Source of the DNA: a virus
Virus record (IMG/VR): IMGVR_UViG_3300047409_000386
Span: 1 to 41,934 of that record
DNA length: 41,934 nt
Direction: 5' to 3' (one strand)
A program made the position numbers and the translations under genes. Positions 1 through 41,934 of the stretch are shown here, piece after piece (positions within the stretch are counted from its first letter, which is position 1; each line of letters opens with the position of its first letter). The notes under the pieces were generated by a model. The model had not been told where the DNA came from and did no database searches. It saw nothing but the letters and a program-made list of their open reading frames with translations.

Positions 1-683
1 AGCTCGTCAAAGCCCGCCCCGCGCCAACCCCGCCGCATCTGATCCTCCCACCCACCCCGCCGATCCCACCCGTCCCCGCCTGGGCCGCCTGGTGGCAACG
101 CTGCCTCTACGCCGGCATGAACCCCCTCCTCGGCTCCAGTTGGGCCGGCTGCAAAGTCCTCTTCACCGCCGACCCCTCATACGACTCCGCCGCCACCCGC
201 CAAACCGCCGACCAGCTGCGAGCGTCCGGCCACGACATCGGCGTCTGGTACGTCCCCACCCAAGTCAGCAAAGACCGCGCCGTCCAAGTCGCCACCCGCC
301 TCGGCGTCCCCTTCGAACACATCTCAGGCCAAGCCGAAACGCTCCCCGAATTCTGGCAATCCTGGGAAAACGGCCACCGCCACGTCTGCGGAAACCTCAG
401 CGACACCATCAACGACGGCAAAGCCGTCGAGCTCGTCGCCACCGGCCAGATGGCTTACAGCAATGAGCACTACTGGAACCAGGACAAGTCGCGACAGGTC
501 GACAACCACGGCCTGCCTGTCGTCTCGATCCTCATCGCCGTCTACGACGGTCATTCGGACTCAAGCAGCCCCAACGCCTGGGATCCAACCTGCCAGGACT
601 ACAAAGACGCCGGCCGCTGGTGGCAGGGCATGAGCCTCTACGAGCCGGGCGCCACTGTTGCCGATGCGCGGCTGATGCCGTAA
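1..683 (+). CDS. TIM-barrel / glycoside-hydrolase-like protein, 5'-truncated copy
   Basis: The reading frame is open from base 3 and begins before the window. Its complete homologue lies at 39981-40910. The remaining part has a Pro-rich linker (PPTPPIPPVP) and then a globular domain with alternating beta and alpha segments (KVLFTADPSY, DIGVWYVPT, VPVVSILIAVYD-like core) that resembles a glycoside-hydrolase-like TIM barrel. The substrate is unknown. Its last ~75 codons differ strongly from the right-hand copy, while the codons before them are identical, which fits co-conversion with the adjacent HNH insert. The stop TAA overlaps the HNH start (TAATG). The enzymatic role is inferred from the look of the fold only. 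Confidence 0.75.
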   Translation, partial: LVKARPAPTPPHLILPPTPPIPPVPAWAAWWQRCLYAGMNPLLGSSWAGCKVLFTADPSYDSAATRQTADQLRASGHDIGVWYVPTQVSKDRAVQVATRLGVPFEHISGQAETLPEFWQSWENGHRHVCGNLSDTINDGKAVELVATGQMAYSNEHYWNQDKSRQVDNHGLPVVSILIAVYDGHSDSSSPNAWDPTCQDYKDAGRWWQGMSLYEPGATVADARLMP

Positions 684-1124
684 TGGCCCGGCCTCCCGTT
701 CCAAAGATCGAGCGGTTCCTCGACAGGGTCACCGTCATGCCCGATGGCTGTTGGCACTGGTCGTACCCGCGTGCCACCACGGGCTACGGAGTGCTCTACG
801 ACAACGACAGGAAGCTGTACGGATTGGCGCATCGCTACTCCTACGAGCTCTTCATCGGACCTATCCCCGAAGAGACGCTCGACCATCTCTGCCGTGTCCG
901 TCATTGCGTCAACCCTGCGCATCTTGAGCCGGTCAGCAAAGGGGACAACACGCTGCGCGGTGAGACAATCACAGGTCGGAACAAACGCAAGACGCACTGC
1001 AAACGCGGCCATCCGCTGAGCGGCGCAAACGTAATCCCCGTTCCTGGCGGTGGGCGTAGTTGTCGCGAGTGCTCACGGCGTCGTTCTCGCGAGTATCAGC
1101 AGCGCCGGCGAAAGCTGATGCCGT
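682..1124 (+). mobile_element. 443-bp free-standing HNH insert with 11-bp flanking direct repeat
   Basis: Comparison with the right-hand copy, where the upstream gene runs directly into the next gene at 40907, defines a 443-bp extra segment. The 11-mer GCTGATGCCGT occurs at 671-681 and again at 1114-1124, exactly 443 bases apart. Both copies encode the C-terminal Leu-Met-Pro of the protein they end. The empty site has the related GCTCATGCCAT. The insert is essentially just the HNH reading frame, with no room for an intron. Confidence 0.85.
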
Positions 1125-1126
1125 GA
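683..1126 (+). CDS. HNH homing endonuclease (free-standing)
   Basis: This is a 147-residue HNH_3/I-HmuI-type nuclease. The centre of the protein carries the typical pattern LDHLCRVRHCVNPAHLEPVS, with the catalytic His pair and Asn and metal-binding cysteines, followed by a basic C-terminal zinc-finger-like segment (CKRGHPL ... SCRECSRRR). The ATG at 683 overlaps the upstream stop. Its codons are less G/C-biased at third positions than its neighbours', suggesting recent acquisition. It is absent from the otherwise equivalent right-hand locus. It is expected to cut HNH-free copies of the same locus and spread by repair. Confidence 0.9.
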   Translation: MARPPVPKIERFLDRVTVMPDGCWHWSYPRATTGYGVLYDNDRKLYGLAHRYSYELFIGPIPEETLDHLCRVRHCVNPAHLEPVSKGDNTLRGETITGRNKRKTHCKRGHPLSGANVIPVPGGGRSCRECSRRRSREYQQRRRKLMP

Positions 1127-1362
1127 GCGACGGGGTCGTCGAAACCACGCTGGCCGCCCTCACCCAATGCCGCGCCGCCTACCGCGCCGCCATCAACGAA
1201 CTCCACGAACGAAACAACGACCTCGCCGACTGGAAACCCAAAGTCCAAGCGCTCCTCGACGCGCTCACCGAGATCAGCGGCAACGGCTACGGACTCAACG
1301 CCGAACCACGAGCAGCGAACATCGCACTCGAGGCGCTCGGCCACTGGCACGGAGACCAGTGA
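1123..1362 (+). CDS. Small helical protein, unknown function
   Basis: This 79-residue protein starts at GTG 1123, overlapping the HNH stop. In the empty-site copy the same gene starts with ATG (40907), so the insertion event appears to have changed the start codon. It is mostly helical (TLAALTQCRAAYRAAINELH) and has an Asp/Trp-containing C-terminus ending GHWHGDQ. No family is recognised. The two copies differ at only a few residues, mostly conservative, so the frame is under protein-level constraint. Confidence 0.75.
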   Translation: MSDGVVETTLAALTQCRAAYRAAINELHERNNDLADWKPKVQALLDALTEISGNGYGLNAEPRAANIALEALGHWHGDQ

Positions 1363-1442
1363 GCGGCCCCGTCTTCGCCGGCGCCATGATCATCCTCACC
1401 CTCATCACCCTCCTCCTCATCGAATCGTGGCTCACCCGATGA
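1359..1442 (+). CDS. Micro-membrane protein, 27 aa
   Basis: GTG at 1359 overlaps the preceding TGA. The product is a single hydrophobic helix (AMIILTLITLLLIESW) with a short Ser/Gly N-terminus and a C-terminal Thr-Arg, so it is a single-pass membrane peptide. Its stop overlaps the ATG of the next gene, and the right-hand copy is identical. Function is unknown; tight coupling on both sides supports translation. Confidence 0.65.
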   Translation: MSGPVFAGAMIILTLITLLLIESWLTR

Positions 1443-1714
1443 AGCTCGACCCCGCTCAGATCGCCCAGGCGTACATCAACGACGAACGCCGAAACCTCGC
1501 CACCCTCGCCCGCGCCTACCTCCAAACCACCAACGAACTCGACGCAATCAACCACTGCCTCGACGGACTCGACCCCGCAGAAGTACGCACAATCCGGGCC
1601 GAGCTCGCAGAAGAACGCGACCGCAAACGCCGAATCCAAGCCATCCTCACCGAAGCACAAGCCATCCTCACCCCCCCAAAAACACCAGACGTCCGCGGCC
1701 TCCCCAACCCTTGA
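1439..1714 (+). CDS. Coiled-coil small protein, unknown function
   Basis: This 91-residue protein begins MKLDPAQIAQAYI. I chose the ATG at 1439, which overlaps the upstream TGA, rather than the in-frame codon at 1427. The middle is charged and helical (RTIRAELAEERDRKRRIQAI), suggesting a short coiled coil, and the end is Pro-rich. It is identical in the right-hand repeat. No family is recognised. Confidence 0.7.
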   Translation: MKLDPAQIAQAYINDERRNLATLARAYLQTTNELDAINHCLDGLDPAEVRTIRAELAEERDRKRRIQAILTEAQAILTPPKTPDVRGLPNP

Positions 1715-1744
1715 CACCCGCTACCAACCAGACAACACTCACAA

Positions 1745-1837
1745 GTGGCGCACGTCCGAAGGCACCTCGACACGTCGAGCATCGCGGAAGCTCCCTACGC
1801 ACAGACGACCGCGTCGGAGCCACACCCCCTGCGATAG
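1745..1837 (+). CDS. Possible 30-aa ORF
   Basis: A short frame from GTG 1745 to TAG 1837 has the strong G/C third-position pattern of real genes here, which the overlapping long TTG frame lacks. The product contains HLDTSSIAEAPYAQTTASEP. No ribosome-binding site is evident. The DNA is identical in the two terminal copies. Confidence 0.3.
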   Translation: MAHVRRHLDTSSIAEAPYAQTTASEPHPLR

Positions 1838-1853
1838 CTATCACCGCAACCAG

Positions 1854-2063
1854 ATGGCCCACCGCGCAGACCTCGACCAGGCCAGGCTCCGGCCGCACCT
1901 CCGCGACGACCAGCCGGCCCGCCAACCCATCATCGTCCACACCCACCCCACCTCGGTCGCGACCGCAGCTGGGGATCCGATCAAGCTCCGCGGCATCCCC
2001 GCCATCGGCCGCTCCGTCTCAGGCGCAATCCACGGAACCCAACCCGAAAGGATCCAACCATGA
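1854..2063 (+). CDS. Small protein, unknown function
   Basis: This 69-residue frame starts at ATG 1854 and ends in TGA overlapping the next ATG (ATGA at 2060). Third positions are almost all G or C. The protein is rich in His, Arg and Pro in the first half (RPHLRDDQPARQPIIVHTHP). A Gly/Ile-rich segment follows (KLRGIPAIGRSVSGAIHG). No family is recognised. Confidence 0.55.
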   Translation: MAHRADLDQARLRPHLRDDQPARQPIIVHTHPTSVATAAGDPIKLRGIPAIGRSVSGAIHGTQPERIQP

Positions 2064-2358
2064 ACCCCATCCACGAAATCGAAACGCCCGAGCCCGACGC
2101 CCCGCCCGCACCCGAACCCCAAACCCCCCCCCAACCCCAAAGCTAGAGACGCCAGAGCCACACCTCCCCTCGGTGGCCGAACTCATCCGCGACCACGGCA
2201 TCCGCGTCAACAGCCGCCCCTGCTCCAACTGCGACCGCTGGTCGCTCTACCGAATACCCGACCCCGACGCCGAGATCGCACTCGGCTTCTTCGCCTGCGT
2301 CGTCTGCGACACCAACAGCGAATCAAGACGGCAGGCCAATCTCGAAGCGAGGAGGTGA
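2060..2358 (+). CDS. Pro-rich/zinc-ribbon protein, probable -1 frameshift product
   Basis: The ATG at 2060 has a good ribosome-binding site (AAAGGATC). In the zero frame it stops at TAG 2144-2146 after 28 residues. A run of nine C at 2124-2132 contains C CCC CCC in the correct phase. Slipping back one base there joins the acidic Pro-rich N-terminus to a 75-residue frame ending at 2358, with PSVAELIRDHGIRVNS and a zinc ribbon (CSNC ... CVVC). The fused product is about 99 residues and reads continuously, including a repeated ETPEP motif on either side of the junction. The alternatives are a sequencing error in the C run, or independent initiation of the ribbon at GTG 2173, which has no visible ribosome-binding site. 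Confidence 0.55.
2125..2131 (+). promoter_or_regulatory. Candidate -1 frameshift heptamer CCCCCCC
   Basis: It lies in the C9 run with zero-frame codons ACC CCC CCC CAA. The heptamer has X XXY YYZ phasing, and the shifted frame stays open to 2358. The same C9 run is present in the right-hand copy (41908-41916). Confidence 0.45.
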
Positions 2359-2362
2359 CAGC

Positions 2363-2440
2363 GTGACCGACACACAGTCGTGGCTACTCGTCGTCGAGGT
2401 CGGGATCATCGCGATCGTCGCGCTGATCAAACTGCGTTGA
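2363..2440 (+). CDS. Micro-membrane protein, 25 aa
   Basis: GTG at 2363 is preceded by an excellent AGGAGG seven bases upstream. The product is a single hydrophobic helix ([19 protein letters not shown]) with a positive C-terminus. The stop overlaps the TTG start of the next gene. It is one of three such single-span micro-proteins in the window. Function is unknown. Confidence 0.7.
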   Translation: MTDTQSWLLVVEVGIIAIVALIKLR

Positions 2441-3072
2441 CCGAATACCTCCAGCTCTTCAAAACGCCAGACGGATTGCCCAGCATCGGGCGACGCGGCA
2501 GACCCAGGATCTACCTCAACGCCGAAGAGCGAGCACGGGTCTGGGCTGAACGGAGACGCCAGGCCTACGTTCCTCGCAGAAGACCCAGCCTCGTCACCCG
2601 ACTACCTCAAGGCTGGATCGTTCAGGATCCCGAGACCGGCAAGTGGTACGAACGCGATGGCAAGACGAAGGTACGTACTGCACAGCCGTGGCCATGTGCA
2701 GCTAACTGCGGCAAGACCATCCATCGAAGCCGTCGCTATGTTCGGAAGCATGGTCAGCCCTACTGCAAGGACTGCCGGCCCGCACGTGGTGGCCAGCCTC
2801 TACCCGTAGGTAGTCGTCGCCCGGGTGGTGATGGCTACGTCGCAGTCAAGACCGGGATGCCGAGCCAATGGCAACTCGAGCATCGCGTCGTCATGGCCAC
2901 CCATCTCGGCAGACCTCTACTCGAGACAGAGACAGTGCACCACATTGATGGCAACCGAGGCAACAACACCATCACCAACCTTCAACTACGTCGAGGACAA
3001 CACGGAGCCGGCGTCGTTCACGAATGTCTCGACTGCGGATCGATGAACGTCGTCGCGGTCCCGATCGGGTGA
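2437..3072 (+). CDS. HNH endonuclease (HNH_3 type)
   Basis: This 211-residue protein starts at TTG 2437, overlapping the previous TGA. The N-terminus is basic, followed by a zinc finger (CAANCG ... YCKDC). It also has a classical HNH_3 core: [15 protein letters not shown] and then [12 protein letters not shown] with the HH...N triad. Third codon positions are less G/C-biased than in neighbours. It could be homing or packaging-associated; because a second HNH protein lies directly at the terminase, homing or selfish behaviour is more likely here. Confidence 0.88.
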
Positions 3073-3080
3073 CGGGGGGG

Positions 3081-3389
3081 ATGGTTAAGCCAAAAGGACG
3101 GCGAGATTACCCCGCGGTTTTGAAAATACCCCCCCGTCGAAAACGAAAATTGAGTCCGGCGCTGCGCGGCTACGGCGCAGCCCACTACCGGGTTCGCAGG
3201 ATGCTCCGCCCCTCCGTCGATGCTGGTTTGACAACATGCGCCCGCTGCGGGAAGCCGATCCTGGCTGGTACGCCGTGGGATCTCGGCCACGTCGACGGCG
3301 ACCGCTCCCGCTGGTCGGGTCCGGAGCACGCGGCGTGTAACCGGGCGACCGCCGGCCGGAAGGTGAAGAGGTTTTCGCGGCCGTGGTGA
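3081..3389 (+). CDS. HNH endonuclease adjacent to terminase
   Basis: This 102-residue protein has CARCGKP (Cys53, Cys56), WDLGHVDGD (His70) and PEHAACNR (His83, Asn87). This is the compact HNH fold found beside small terminases, where it supports DNA cleavage during packaging in HK97-like phages. Its stop overlaps the small terminase start. The first ~24 codons are unusually A/T-rich and basic, so translation could instead start at TTG 3150; the A/T-rich stretch may belong to a packaging site. Confidence 0.85.
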
Positions 3390-3646
3390 GTGTGGTCGAG
3401 GCGCTCGAGCAGGACGTTGCCAGGTTGGGTGTGTTGCCGGCTGGGTGTGAGGCGTTGGTGGCGTCGGCGTTCGCGTTGGCGCGGGAACTCGACGGTGACA
3501 ACCGGGCGTCGGCGAAGGCGAACTGTTCGAAGGCGCTGTTGGAGACGATCGGCCAGCTGCGGGAGTTGGCGCCGCTCCAGGCGCAGGGGTCTCCGCTGGA
3601 TCAGATTCGTGACCGGCGGGATAAGCGGCTGCGGCGGGCGTCGTGA
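3386..3646 (+). CDS. Terminase small subunit (candidate)
   Basis: This 86-residue, mostly helical protein ([36 protein letters not shown]) has a basic C-terminal tail ([12 protein letters not shown]). It is assigned mainly from position, since it overlaps both the HNH gene and terL. The GTG at 3386 overlaps the upstream TGA; GTG 3383 is also possible. Small terminases bind the packaging site and recruit the large subunit. Confidence 0.7.
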
Positions 3647-31820: not shown

Positions 31821-31991
31821 ATGAGTGAAGGGCTAGACCGAGTCAAACAAGCCGCCGCCAACAGACAGGCGGCCGAACAAGAGCTCCGCCAGGCGATCAT
31901 CGAAGCGGTGAAACACCACTCGATCCGCCAGGTCGCCGCCGCAGCCGGTCTCGGCCCCACTCGCATCCACCAGATCAAAGAGGAGGGCTGA
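31821..31991 (+). CDS. Small HTH regulator upstream of integrase
   Basis: This 56-residue protein has a helical N-terminus (GLDRVKQAAANRQAAEQELR) and a C-terminal helix-turn-helix (SIRQVAAAAGLGPTRIHQIK). I chose ATG 31821, directly after the palindrome. An in-frame ATG at 31749, overlapping the upstream stop, would add 24 residues including the peptide WFARTYDAATQ that recurs upstream of 37387. It may be autoregulated through the palindrome. Confidence 0.7.
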   Translation: MSEGLDRVKQAAANRQAAEQELRQAIIEAVKHHSIRQVAAAAGLGPTRIHQIKEEG

Positions 31992-33091
31992 TGCCGAAAC
32001 AACAGACCGGCAGCGTCGACCACTTCCGCGGGTCGTGGCGGGCACGCTGGGCCGACGAAACCGGCCGCCGCCGCGAAAAGCGCGGGTTCCCCACCAAAAC
32101 CAAAGCCGAACAGTGGCTCCGCGCCGAGATCGACCGGGTGCAGAAACGACGTGGGGGAGAGGCGGCACCCGGCGAGCTCCCCACCCTGGACGTGCTGATC
32201 GACGAGTACCTCGCCCAGCACACCGCCGAGAAGAACACGCTCGTCACCCTCGACTACCGGCTTCGGCACGCTCGAGCCACGTTCGGCGCGTTGCGGGTCG
32301 ATCGGCTGACCGTCCCCGAGATCGCCGCCTGGCGGAAGCAACTCACGCCGGCGTCGGCGTGGCACATCCACAAGGCGCTCCGGCAGATCCTCAACTACGC
32401 GGTCGCCGCCGGCTACCTCACCCGCAACCCCGCCAGGGATGTTCCCAACCCCGAGCCCAAGAGGGTGGAGGTGCCGCACTTCGACACCCCCGCCGAACTC
32501 GACCAGGTTCTCGACCAGCTTCCGCCGCGGCTGCGCTCCCGGGTGGTCTTCGCCGCGAACACCGGCCTCCGGCCCGAAGAGTGGATCGCATTGGAGCGGC
32601 GCGACCTCGAAACCGACGAGACCGGCATGGTCGTCCGCGTCCGGCGTGTGTTCACCAGCGGCGAACTCAAACCGTACGGGAAGCAGGACGGGTCGCTACG
32701 CACCGTCCCCGTCCCCGTCCCCGCCGTCGCCGCCCTCAAGGCGGACCCGCCGAGGATCGATACGCCGCTCCTGTTCCCCGGCGACCGCGGCAGCTACATG
32801 AACGACCGCTGGTTCCGCGAAGGCTACTGGCGGCCAGCCGTCGAAGCCGCCGGGCTCGACACCGACGACGCAGGCAGACCGCGGAAGCTGACCCCGTACT
32901 CGCTCCGCCACACATATGCGACGTGGCACATCGACGCGGGCACCGAACTGTTCGAGCTGTCGCGGATGATGGGCACCAGCGTCAGCCAGATCGACGGCAC
33001 CTACGGCCACCTCCGCAAAGGCGCAGGGGCTGCTTCCCGCGCCCGCCTCGAGGCGTGGCAGGAGCGGGTCGCTGTGGAGGCGGGTCCATGA
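31991..33091 (+). CDS. int: Tyrosine integrase
   Basis: This 366-residue protein has an N-terminal arm-binding region (GSVDHFRGSWRARWADETGR), a core-binding SAM-like domain (about residues 65-155) and a catalytic domain. Arg194 lies in NTGLRPEEWIAL, Arg306-His307 in PYSLRHTYATWH and the nucleophile Tyr338 in GTYGHL. The usual HxxR histidine is Tyr303 and the GHS box is GTS, variants common in actinobacterial integrases. It integrates the genome at the attP located about 550 bases downstream. Confidence 0.93.
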   Translation: MPKQQTGSVDHFRGSWRARWADETGRRREKRGFPTKTKAEQWLRAEIDRVQKRRGGEAAPGELPTLDVLIDEYLAQHTAEKNTLVTLDYRLRHARATFGALRVDRLTVPEIAAWRKQLTPASAWHIHKALRQILNYAVAAGYLTRNPARDVPNPEPKRVEVPHFDTPAELDQVLDQLPPRLRSRVVFAANTGLRPEEWIALERRDLETDETGMVVRVRRVFTSGELKPYGKQDGSLRTVPVPVPAVAALKADPPRIDTPLLFPGDRGSYMNDRWFREGYWRPAVEAAGLDTDDAGRPRKLTPYSLRHTYATWHIDAGTELFELSRMMGTSVSQIDGTYGHLRKGAGAASRARLEAWQERVAVEAGP

Positions 33092-33774: not shown

Positions 33775-33801
33775 TTCCGAACGACCCCGTGCGAGGGTCG
33801 C

Positions 33802-33987
33802 GTGACCAACGCCACCCAGCTCACCGTCTACCAAGACGACCAAGGCGAATGGCGCTGGCACGCCCAAGCCCGCAACGGCGAAATCGTCGCCCAAGGCGAA
33901 GCACACACCCGCAAAGAAGACGCCGAACGCGCAGCCACCCACGTCTTCCCCGGCGTCCCGATCGTCCTCGAGAAGCGGGCCGAGTGA
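33802..33987 (+). CDS. DUF1508/YegP-like small protein
   Basis: This 61-residue protein has YQDDQGEWRWHAQARNGEIV and later HTRKEDAERAATHVFPGVPI, the strand-strand-helix plan of the YegP/DUF1508 family. GTG 33802. It is the first gene to the right of attP and overlaps the methyltransferase. Function of the family is poorly known. Confidence 0.7.
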   Translation: MTNATQLTVYQDDQGEWRWHAQARNGEIVAQGEAHTRKEDAERAATHVFPGVPIVLEKRAE

Positions 33988-34964
33988 ATGTCGGATCGCT
34001 CTTCAGCGGAATTGGCGGACTCGACCTCGGACTCCACCGAGCCGGATGGAACCACGCCTTCTTCTGCGAATCCGACCCCTACCGAAGGGACGTCCTCCGG
34101 GCCCGGTTCCCCGGAGTCCCCGTCTACGACGACGTGCGAGATGTGGCACGAGAACATCGACGGCCGGATGTACCGGACGACGGACGCGGCATGGGCGCTG
34201 ATGGCCGAGCCGCAGAAGGCCGAGCCGTTCTTGGTCTTCTCTGCGGGGGTTTCCCCTGTCAAGACCTCTCCGTCGCCGGAAAACGCAAAGGACTCGCCGG
34301 CGAACGCTCCGGCCTCTTCCACGAGTTCGCACGAATCATCGAGGCTCTTCGACCCCGAGCCCTACTCCTGGAGAACGTTCCCGGGCTCCTCTCCTCGAAC
34401 GGCGGTCGGGACTTCGGAATCGTGCTTGGAACGCTGGCCGACCTCGGGTACGGCGTGGCCTGGCGGATTGTCGACAGCCGCTACTTCGGAGTGCCGCAGC
34501 GACGACGAAGGGTGTTCATCGTCGGAGTGCTCGCTGACGGAGATCCTCGAGCCGCCGCAGAACGTGCCGGCGAAATACTCGCTGTCGGCACGCGCTGCGA
34601 CCGGCATCCTGCGACGCGCCCAGAAGAGGGGCCGGACGTTGCCGTCGCATCTCTCAGCGGCCTTGGAAGCGGTGGCCCGGACGACAACGACGGACAGGCC
34701 GGACGAGTGATCGCCGTCCCGCTCTCCCACGGCAGCAACCCGAACTCGAACATGGCCGGACGCCGCCGCGAAGACGACGAGAACCTCACGCTCAACGGCG
34801 CAGGCGTCCGCCGTCTCACCCCGACCGAATGCGAACGCCTCCAAGCACTCCCCGACGGATGGACACAACTCGGCGGCACCCCCGACAGCCGACGGTACGC
34901 CGCACTCGGAGATGCCGTCACAGCCTCGGTCGCCGAATGGATCGGCCGGAGGCTCCTCGCATGA
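33984..34964 (+). CDS. C5 cytosine DNA methyltransferase
   Basis: This 326-residue protein has motif I (GSLFSGIGGLDLGLHRAGW), catalytic motif IV with Pro-Cys at 91-92 (GGFPCQDLS), motif VI (LLLENVPGLL) and motif VIII (PQRRRRVFIVG). Motif X is near the end (LGDAVTASVAEWIGRR). It transfers methyl groups from S-adenosylmethionine to cytosine in a specific site. No restriction enzyme is encoded beside it, so it is an orphan, probably protecting phage DNA from host restriction. GTG 33984 overlaps the previous stop. Confidence 0.92.
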   Translation: MNVGSLFSGIGGLDLGLHRAGWNHAFFCESDPYRRDVLRARFPGVPVYDDVRDVAREHRRPDVPDDGRGMGADGRAAEGRAVLGLLCGGFPCQDLSVAGKRKGLAGERSGLFHEFARIIEALRPRALLLENVPGLLSSNGGRDFGIVLGTLADLGYGVAWRIVDSRYFGVPQRRRRVFIVGVLADGDPRAAAERAGEILAVGTRCDRHPATRPEEGPDVAVASLSGLGSGGPDDNDGQAGRVIAVPLSHGSNPNSNMAGRRREDDENLTLNGAGVRRLTPTECERLQALPDGWTQLGGTPDSRRYAALGDAVTASVAEWIGRRLLA

Positions 34965-39842: not shown

Positions 39843-40015
39843 CTGCCGCCCAATACGCCGCCCTCCTCGACCTCCTCGAGCGCCAACTCGTCGACGGCAA
39901 CGCCACCCTCGAACAGATCGCCGACGCCCTCACCCGGATCGCCGACCAAGGCGACAACCACCTCAACCCAAAGGAACCCAATGGCGAAACGCCTCCTCCC
40001 CGACCAGTTCCGTAA
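39839..40015 (+). CDS. 58-aa small protein, unknown
   Basis: GTG 39839 overlaps the nuclease stop. It has one helical region (AQYAALLDLLERQLVDGNAT; LEQIADALTRIADQ) and a Pro-rich end that overlaps the start of the next gene by 35 bases, an unusually long overlap here. Confidence 0.5.
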   Translation: MTAAQYAALLDLLERQLVDGNATLEQIADALTRIADQGDNHLNPKEPNGETPPPRPVP

Positions 40016-40910
40016 CGTCACCCGCTACCGGTACGGCCTCCTCAAACGCCGCCCCAAAGACATCCCCCACATCACCAGCTCGAGCTACGGGTACGTCCTC
40101 AAACGCTGGCAGTCCTTCGACGCCTGGAACCACTGGCAAGACGCCGGCAAGCCTGCCCCCAGACCCGCCGGCGTCTGGCGAACAGTGCCCCCCTGGGACG
40201 GATGGACACCCTGGGACTTGCGCAAAGAGCTCGTCAAAGCCCGCCCCGCGCCAACCCCGCCGCATCTGATCCTCCCACCCACCCCGCCGATCCCACCCGT
40301 CCCAGCCTGGGCCGCCTGGTGGCAACGCTGCCTCTACGCCGGCATGAACCCCCTCCTCGGCTCCAGCTGGCCCGGCTGCAAAATCCTGTTCACCGCCGAC
40401 CCCTCATACGACTCCGCCGCCACCCGCCAAACAGCCGACCAGCTCCGCAACAGCGGCCACGACATCGGCGTCTGGTACGTCCCTACCCAAGTCTCGAAAG
40501 ACCGCGCCGTCCAAGTCGCCACCCGCCTCGGCGTCCCCTTCGAACACATCTCAGGCCAAGCCGAAACGCTCCCCGAATTCTGGCAATCCTGGGAAAACGG
40601 CCACCGCCACGTCTGCGGAAACCTCAGCGACACCATCAACGACGGCAAAGCCGTCGAGCTCGTCGCCACCGGCCAGATGGCTTACACCAACGAGTTCTAC
40701 TGGAACCAGGACAAAAGCCGATCCCCCGACAACCACGGACTCCCCGTCGTCGCGATGCTCGTCGCCTGCTACGACGGCCACTCCGACAGCTCGAGCGGCA
40801 ACGCTTGGGAACCATCCGCCCAGGACTACAAAACCGCCGGCCACTGGTGGCAAGGTATGAGCCTCTACGAGCCCGGCGCCGACACCAACGACGCCAAGCT
40901 CATGCCATGA
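39981..40910 (+). CDS. TIM-barrel / glycoside-hydrolase-like protein, complete copy
   Basis: This 309-residue protein has an N-terminal region of about 90 residues with many Trp and Arg (WQSFDAWNHWQDAGKPAPRP), a Pro-rich linker (PPTPPIPPVPAW) and a globular domain from about residue 118. That domain has strands CKILFTADPSY, HDIGVWYVPT and LPVVAMLVACYDGH and helices LPEFWQSWENGHRHVCG. It has the same linker-plus-barrel plan as 28629. It is preceded by AAAGG. This is the uninterrupted version of the gene cut at base 1; the stop overlaps the next ATG. Confidence 0.75.
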   Translation: MAKRLLPDQFRNVTRYRYGLLKRRPKDIPHITSSSYGYVLKRWQSFDAWNHWQDAGKPAPRPAGVWRTVPPWDGWTPWDLRKELVKARPAPTPPHLILPPTPPIPPVPAWAAWWQRCLYAGMNPLLGSSWPGCKILFTADPSYDSAATRQTADQLRNSGHDIGVWYVPTQVSKDRAVQVATRLGVPFEHISGQAETLPEFWQSWENGHRHVCGNLSDTINDGKAVELVATGQMAYTNEFYWNQDKSRSPDNHGLPVVAMLVACYDGHSDSSSGNAWEPSAQDYKTAGHWWQGMSLYEPGADTNDAKLMP

Positions 40911-41146
40911 GCGACGGGGTCGTCGAAACCACGCTGGCCGCCCTCACACAGTGCCGCGCCGCCTACCGCGCCGCCATCAACGAACTCCACGAACGCAACA
41001 ACGACCTCACCGACTGGAAACCCAAAGTCCAAGCACTCGTCGACGCCCTCACCGAGATCAGCGGCAACGGCTACGGCATCGACGCCGAACCACGAGCAGC
41101 GAACATCGCGCTCGAGGCGCTCGGCCACTGGCACGGAGACCAGTGA
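40907..41146 (+). CDS. Small helical protein, right-hand copy of 1123-1362
   Basis: This is the same 79-residue protein with a few substitutions (for example Ala to Thr in NDLTDW, and GIDAEP for GLNAEP). Here it starts with ATG in an ATGA overlap with the preceding gene, the arrangement before HNH insertion. Confidence 0.75.
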   Translation: MSDGVVETTLAALTQCRAAYRAAINELHERNNDLTDWKPKVQALVDALTEISGNGYGIDAEPRAANIALEALGHWHGDQ

Positions 41147-41226
41147 GCGGCCCCGTCTTCGCCGGCGCCATGATCATCCTCACCCTCATCACCCTCCTCC
41201 TCATCGAATCGTGGCTCACCCGATGA
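41143..41226 (+). CDS. Micro-membrane protein, right-hand copy
   Basis: Identical to 1359-1442: GTG start overlapping the previous stop, one hydrophobic span, and a stop overlapping the next ATG. Confidence 0.65.
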   Translation: MSGPVFAGAMIILTLITLLLIESWLTR

Positions 41227-41498
41227 AGCTCGACCCCGCTCAGATCGCCCAGGCGTACATCAACGACGAACGCCGAAACCTCGCCACCCTCGCCCGCGCC
41301 TACCTCCAAACCACCAACGAACTCGACGCAATCAACCACTGCCTCGACGGACTCGACCCCGCAGAAGTACGCACAATCCGGGCCGAGCTCGCAGAAGAAC
41401 GCGACCGCAAACGCCGAATCCAAGCCATCCTCACCGAAGCACAAGCCATCCTCACCCCCCCAAAAACACCAGACGTCCGCGGCCTCCCCAACCCTTGA
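41223..41498 (+). CDS. Coiled-coil small protein, right-hand copy
   Basis: Identical in protein to 1439-1714 (91 residues), with the same ATGA-type coupling to the micro-membrane gene. Confidence 0.7.
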   Translation: MKLDPAQIAQAYINDERRNLATLARAYLQTTNELDAINHCLDGLDPAEVRTIRAELAEERDRKRRIQAILTEAQAILTPPKTPDVRGLPNP

Positions 41499-41528
41499 CA
41501 CCCGCTACCAACCAGACAACACTCACAA

Positions 41529-41621
41529 GTGGCGCACGTCCGAAGGCACCTCGACACGTCGAGCATCGCGGAAGCTCCCTACGCACAGACGACCGCGTCG
41601 GAGCCACACCCCCTGCGATAG
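41529..41621 (+). CDS. Possible 30-aa ORF, right-hand copy
   Basis: Identical to 1745-1837; the same weak support applies. Confidence 0.28.
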   Translation: MAHVRRHLDTSSIAEAPYAQTTASEPHPLR

Positions 41622-41637
41622 CTATCACCGCAACCAG

Positions 41638-41847
41638 ATGGCCCACCGCGCAGACCTCGACCAGGCCAGGCTCCGGCCGCACCTCCGCGACGACCAGCCG
41701 GCCCGCCAACCCATCATCGTCCACACCCACCCCACCTCGGTCGCGACCGCAGCTGGGGATCCGATCAAGCTCCGCGGCATCCCCGCCATCGGCCGCTCCG
41801 TCTCAGGCGCAATCCACGGAACCCAACCCGAAAGGATCCAACCATGA
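41638..41847 (+). CDS. Small protein, right-hand copy of 1854-2063
   Basis: Identical 69-residue frame, with its TGA overlapping ATG 41844. Confidence 0.55.
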   Translation: MAHRADLDQARLRPHLRDDQPARQPIIVHTHPTSVATAAGDPIKLRGIPAIGRSVSGAIHGTQPERIQP

Positions 41848-41934
41848 ACCCCATCCACGAAATCGAAACGCCCGAGCCCGACGCCCCGCCCGCACCCGAA
41901 CCCCAAACCCCCCCCCAACCCCAAAGCTATAGAA
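41844..41934 (+). CDS. Pro-rich protein, 3'-truncated right-hand copy
   Basis: Same start and C9 run as 2060. The window ends 13 bases after the CAA CCC that follows the run. The last bases differ from the left copy, removing its TAG from the zero frame; this is at the very contig end and should not be relied on. Confidence 0.5.
   Translation, partial: MNPIHEIETPEPDAPPAPEPQTPPQPQSYR

Follow-up and report, generated by a model that had tools for sequence, protein, structure and literature searches.

A phage HNH endonuclease gene whose tail is most likely the displaced end of the neighbouring gene

Introduction

How can a free-standing homing endonuclease gene enter a compact phage genome without breaking the genes on either side of it? 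This question is raised by one IMG/VR virus record (41,934 bases, further referred to as the window), which has an HNH gene tightly packed between two genes at its left end and a version of the same region lacking this gene at its right end. In a first-pass annotation the locus was read as a precise entry of the endonuclease at a gene junction, with an 11-bp direct repeat flanking the insert and with mimicry of the upstream gene's C-terminus. We compared the two versions, related HNH loci and published systems.

Results

Two versions of one locus at the contig ends

Profile searches of the window identify terminase, portal, capsid and tape-measure genes; an integrase is also present. Given the integrase and cytosine-C5 methylase genes (31991–33091 and 33789–34964, respectively), the phage is probably temperate. 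The contig ends are homologous: positions 1–2149 correspond to 40228–41934, with 98.7% and 91% identity outside the insert. The alleles are homologous over 1.7 kb and perfectly identical in parts, and only the left one contains an HNH gene, at 683–1126. This comparison confirms that an occupied and an empty HNH site are present in one contig. The genes of the two alleles are as follows.

3–683, plus strand: upstream gene of the occupied allele, cut off by the contig start, ends in DARLMP and a stop
683–1126, plus strand: free-standing HNH endonuclease gene, 147 aa, HNH_3 / phrog_826, ends in RRRKLMP and a stop
1123–1362, plus strand: 79-aa downstream gene of the occupied allele, whose GTG start (1123) overlaps the HNH stop
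39981–40910, plus strand: intact 309-aa upstream gene of the empty allele, ends in DAKLMP and a stop
40907–41146, plus strand: 79-aa downstream gene of the empty allele, ATG start (40907), ATGA overlap

Small genes follow in the left copy, then a second HNH gene and the terminase gene; the right copy breaks off within these small genes. Most simply, the assembly wrapped round a circularly permuted map, and its ends represent the same locus in two strain versions. A tandem duplication within one genome was set aside, since the gene order suggests that both ends lie on one circular map; IMG/VR classes the record as linear. The refutation test proposed earlier, which presupposed a true tandem duplication, does not fit the locus, because the ends are best taken as strain versions of it.

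The upstream gene has no family match in the profile libraries tried, and its low-confidence structural model gives a weak TIM-barrel-like match; for these reasons we do not call it a lysin. No relatives of the 79-aa gene were found in viral contigs.

The HNH gene

The 147-aa protein matches PF13392 (HNH_3) with an E-value of 1.8e-08 and 34.4 bits, above the curated cut-off of 24.8, and phrog_826 with an E-value of 5.5e-51. The HNH core (D67, H68, N77, H80) and the Cys/His residues are intact, and all invariant alignment columns are present. The fold is predicted confidently (pLDDT 89), whereas its similarity to I-PpoI and I-HmuI, the best matches of the model, is only weak (E 0.05–0.2).

As annotated earlier, the gene stands free at a gene junction: it lies outside any intron or intein and has its own start and stop between two intact genes. 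The annotated overlaps on both sides are likewise present, TAATG (681–685, plus strand) joining the upstream gene's stop to the HNH start and GTGA (1123–1126) joining the HNH gene to the 79-aa gene. An intron or riboswitch reading was dropped, as a search of positions 1–3200 gave no Rfam match at E ≤ 1. A transposon with target-site duplication was also rejected: the insert holds the HNH ORF alone, lacks a transposase and is not bordered by inverted repeats. Occupied and empty alleles occur in close relatives, which is one mark of free-standing homing endonucleases. The gene is probably selfish, with a predicted DNA-cutting product.

The repeat and the copies of the gene end

The repeat GCTGATGCCGT is exact at 671–681 and 1114–1124, 443 bp apart, and flanks the 443-bp insert as the first-pass annotation had stated. 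The GC-rich window contains 193 exact 11-mer direct repeats at spacings of 200–1500 bp; hence GCTGATGCCGT matters by its position and homology, not by its length. The relevant gene ends are the following.

669–683, plus strand: left copy of the gene end, CGGCTGATGCCGTAA, contains the repeat at 671–681
1112–1126, plus strand: right copy of the gene end, AAGCTGATGCCGTGA, in frame with the HNH gene as its tail KLMP and stop
40896–40910, plus strand: gene end of the empty allele, AAGCTCATGCCATGA, end of the 309-aa gene

Continuity with the upstream gene identifies the left copy as its last codons, and continuity with the downstream gene identifies the right copy as the same gene end. Over a comparison of 15 bp only, 13 positions of the right copy agree with the empty allele, as do 10 of the left copy. 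The copies diverge just beyond the 11 bp (CGG/AAG and TAA/TGA, left and right), where the right copy alone resembles the empty allele.

We scanned all 1361 stop codons of the window for the 12 non-stop bases of the empty gene end. At least 10 of the 12 are matched before just two stops, that of the empty gene itself and that of the HNH gene; the chance of such a match is 3.5e-5 per site. The 55 HNH relatives that were inspected have other, variable tails, and none of those checked ends in KLMP. Given the uniqueness in the stop-codon scan and the different tails of the relatives, the KLMP of the HNH protein is best taken to be the neighbouring gene's end, and most likely the resident gene's own old end. 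Of the proposed C-terminal mimicry, the tail shared by the HNH protein and the empty-allele upstream gene stands, and a displaced resident end accounts for it most simply. At two positions both copies have G, in place of C and A in the empty allele. A resident remnant alone does not explain this; a slightly different recipient allele or later copy-to-copy conversion would be needed in addition.

Divergence beside the insert and the outgroup

Alignment of the alleles delimits the following tracts.

270–459, plus strand: 190-bp stretch without a mismatch to the empty allele, bordering the divergent tract on its left
460–683, plus strand: 3' end of the upstream gene, divergent and probably foreign, 224 bp with 58 mismatches to the empty allele
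1327–2145, plus strand: stretch of 819 bp right of the insert, identical to 41111–41929

The left flank is thus 26% divergent over 224 bp, and about 16 mismatches separate the occupied from the empty allele in 1109–1326. Divergence is highest at the insert, with identity restored on either side. Mosaicism extends further than the insert. Upstream of the 190-bp identical stretch, positions 1–269 differ from 40228–40496 at 17 sites, so recombination in the upstream gene is not confined to the insert.

A homologous locus from another metagenome (L005), which has neither the HNH gene nor the 79-aa gene, was used as an outgroup. In the last 36 codons it agrees with the empty allele at 19 of the 25 differing sites and with the occupied allele at five. 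Since the outgroup sides with the empty allele, the upstream gene end of the occupied allele was probably imported, and the 15-bp end behind the HNH gene is probably native. The last codons of the outgroup gene, CGA CTG ATG CCC, are more like the left copy, which counts against the route of entry proposed below. No donor was found. Positions 100–130 of L005 represent a third allele, in which the upstream gene ends in DARLMP and a stop, and the next small gene follows directly.

These data modify two points of the first-pass annotation. Entry at the gene junction holds, whereas a clean entry with an 11-bp duplication is not the best reading, the 224 bp before the insert being foreign-looking. 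The next gene does start with GTG (1123) in place of ATG (40907), but this may be an allelic difference and not an effect of the insertion.

Terminal copies at other HNH loci

Direct repeats between both junctions with scores of at least 11 were found at 10 of 134 loci of HNH relatives, where mismatched pairs give an expectation of 1.2. Three of 141 loci had N-terminal copies with scores of 40 or more (0.11 expected), namely those in Gordonia phage Malisha and two IMG/VR phages. The Malisha HNH protein begins, after Met, with RVVKLRGAGESLGGRNMLSSI, and the lysin B encoded behind it begins, after Met-Thr, with RVYKLRGAGEPLDGRNMLSSI. The lysB start of the empty relative Kuwabara matches the copy in the Malisha HNH gene at 61 of 72 positions and Malisha's own lysB start at 48 of 72. 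Because the Kuwabara start is closer to the HNH copy, the HNH gene appears to hold the native start and lysB a foreign one. With an HNH start that copies the start of the next gene, Malisha looks like a mirror image of the window.

In the two IMG/VR phages, sister HNH genes lie at the 5' end of downstream genes which we take to be RusA-like, as judged by recognition of their start motif; they provide a good natural system for studying gene-end swapping.

L036, 2978–3480: HNH gene at the 5' end of a RusA-like gene
L042, 2956–3450: HNH gene at the 5' end of a RusA-like gene

The bodies of these HNH proteins are 70% identical and their leaders are different, each matching its own downstream gene (13 of 14 residues in L042 and nine of 10 in L036). 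Synonymous codon differences between leader and gene outnumber changed codons eight to one and six to one, respectively. By inspection, the HNH start of Gordonia phage Affeca is also similar to a small ORF in phage Stultus, which is empty.

At the C-terminus, in-register copies were observed at three of 90 loci (L013, L126 and the window), as compared with three of 263 other adjacent gene pairs. C-terminal mimicry as a family-wide rule was rejected, the former frequency not being clearly above the latter; on the same grounds L013, L126, L034 and L031 remain suggestive only. Among 17 further HNH loci of named phages there was no clear terminal copy, the comparison of Piper2020 with Ibhubesi shows a plain insertion without a copy, and a search of the accessible IMG/VR records for the junction pattern found no further copies. 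The gene-end copy is a minority pattern, and most HNH loci have no such copy.

Junction duplication was ruled out for Daubenski (L168, 1001–1441, overlaps of 17 and 17 bp) and Chocolat (L171, 1004–1498, overlaps of 11 and 11 bp), as these overlaps of the HNH genes with their two neighbours, though equal in length, show no sequence similarity. In L041 the HNH end (3395–3450) contains a near-perfect inverted repeat (CGCGCAATTACCGGACGGTAATTGCGCG); its right half is found again ahead of the HNH start, where it is not in the frame of the upstream gene. Immediately before the terminase gene, the window (2380–3072, phrog_20891-like) and L005 (1235–1468, phrog_144-like) have unrelated HNH genes, which makes this a second junction subject to turnover or exchange of HNH genes.

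Discussion

A possible route of entry

We lean towards the view that the HNH gene was gained by recombination-coupled repair that also swapped the end of the preceding gene. In the occupied strain the body of the 309-aa gene would be resident, and its last ~224 bp would be foreign and carry their own stop (RLMP, TAA). The HNH gene would come next, joined to the foreign gene end at the TAATG overlap. The original last 15 bp of the resident gene (KLMP, TGA) would stay behind the HNH gene and be read in frame as its tail, supplying its stop codon and the GTGA overlap with the next gene. With a foreign end before the HNH gene and a native end behind it, both neighbours would therefore be intact and translationally coupled.

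The process may have been driven by the nuclease. The HNH enzyme or its ancestor would have made a break or nick close to the gene end of the empty allele; the endonuclease gene and its flanks would then have been copied in as the lesion was repaired on the donor template, a route described for free-standing homing endonucleases (PMC2988022). With the break in the gene end, the recipient would take the donor's diverged end, and the native end may remain behind the insert. A diverged, mostly synonymous replacement would keep the neighbour's protein and remove the cut site, so that the occupied allele may be shielded from cleavage. The transfer presumably went from donor to recipient, and the KLMP tail may have been captured either in this event or earlier in the donor lineage.

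The flank divergence would look the same if ordinary homologous recombination had brought in a segment from a related phage already in possession of the HNH gene, the nuclease being uninvolved and the tail copy having long been present in the donor. Free recombination is usual among such phages, and the mismatches in 1–269 show that the locus is mosaic on a larger scale. Conversion centred on the insert, however, predicts what is seen, a peak of divergence there with identity regained on both sides; moreover, the HNH motifs are intact and sister HNH proteins repeatedly have locally derived leaders. We therefore consider a passive exchange rather unlikely, though worth keeping in mind. An insertion with an 11-bp target-site duplication followed by point changes would agree with the exactness of the repeat at both ends and with the tight junctions, and an empty sister allele with CGGCTGATGCCGT would speak for it. 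It does not agree with the strongly divergent left flank, with the difference between the copies right outside the 11 bp, where only the right one is like the empty allele, or with the lack of transposase and terminal inverted repeats; in homologous cases the copies span 30–72 bp with mostly synonymous differences, and not a fixed short duplication. This explanation is clearly less probable.

Still smaller is the probability that the assembly attached the left end of a different phage through the 819-bp identical stretch, in which case the alleles never coexisted in close strains. That stretch exceeds usual short reads, the record is linear in IMG/VR and the contig stops soon after the stretch, but the gene order agrees with a circular map. 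The comparison of occupied and empty alleles would hold even then, because they are homologous over 1.7 kb and perfectly identical in parts. Coincidence of the KLMP tail and the 11-bp match is hardly credible. Exact 11-mer repeats at similar spacing are numerous in the window, and Ala-rich and similar gene ends often match by chance; yet this match coincides precisely with the homologous gene end and runs on into the 79-aa gene, and its low chance per site goes together with the lack of any other such stop among those scanned.

Comparison with known systems

Gain of the HNH gene together with a swapped gene end may be compared with the mORF gene hybrids of fungal mitochondria, known for atp6, atp9, cox2 and nad3, including atp6 of Allomyces macrogynus (PMC3630166). 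These consist of a foreign gene end, an endonuclease and the displaced native end, which still resembles that of relatives (PMC3630166). The window appears to show the same architecture: the endonuclease ORF is at the 3' end of a gene and is preceded by a divergent in-frame foreign end, and the putative native end behind it is somewhat closer to the empty allele, with 13 versus 10 matches in a comparison of 15 bp only. The mORF endonucleases are LAGLIDADG or GIY-YIG enzymes of mitochondria, whereas the window has an HNH enzyme in a phage; for this reason the locus is not filed as an mORF hybrid, although it would work like one. The native ends also differ in length (roughly 50–280 bp in mORF hybrids, 15 bp in the window), and only in the window is the native end read in frame as the tail of the endonuclease.

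Among phages, the free-standing seg and mob genes of T4-like phages are similar in being intergenic and present or absent between relatives, and they are accompanied by co-converted flanks (PMC2988022). The divergent tract of the window, bounded by identical DNA, would fit such co-conversion, but ordinary mosaicism might also account for it. Cleavage, biased inheritance and distant cut sites have been shown for several T4 enzymes (PMC2988022), whereas cleavage by the HNH protein of the window is a prediction. Duplicated gene ends are not discussed in that review, whose text contains neither "direct repeat" nor "duplicat" (PMC2988022). Precise HNH insertion between genes, established by comparing occupied and empty forms, is reported for Courthouse 46 and Omega 51 of the Cluster J mycobacteriophages, the latter insertion having given lysin A a new 3' end; in contrast to the window, the accessible part of that report describes no displaced native gene end or gene-end copy (PMC3706429).

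In the ShiLan methylase insert the first 11 translated residues of the HNH resemble the host gene just past the insertion site, and invaded alleles are more diverged there (69.5 vs 75.9%). That insert lies inside a gene whose frame is uninterrupted, and splicing-type explanations are considered in the available sections, which do not describe gene-end replacement (PMC11855218). Lactococcal Skunavirus genomes, like the window, have free-standing HNH genes at gene junctions, in large numbers, and marker exclusion has been shown for some of them; these enzymes belong to an I-HmuI-like family, and terminal copies are not reported in the portion of the paper at hand (PMC12724721). In the open-access literature we found no account of a phage gene end being replaced while its displaced native version is fused to a free-standing HNH; such an absence is weak evidence. 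Precise HNH insertions with occupied and empty phage alleles are already known (PMC3706429), and the gene-end replacement variant with a phage HNH would be what is new.

Implications

The locus bears on the question of how a free-standing homing endonuclease gene can settle in a compact phage genome and leave the genes there unbroken. What is seen in the window and in a few relatives suggests that the neighbour receives a diverged end in exchange for its own, and that the nuclease reuses the old one. If this is true, it provides a sequence signature for recent invasions, with the native gene end as the predicted place of the cut, and connects phage elements with the fungal mitochondrial mORF hybrids. 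Annotation is affected too: in such cases the N- or C-terminal residues of an HNH protein belong to the neighbouring gene and not to the nuclease family.

More generally, and only tentatively, some free-standing phage HNH genes might be regarded as "gene-end swapping" elements. These would target the start or stop region of a conserved gene, leave the neighbour a diverged, cleavage-immune and functional end, and be expressed through fusion to the displaced native start or stop. Were this so, gene-end swapping would be a natural rescue-carrying homing strategy, with a logic common to fungal mitochondria and bacteriophages.
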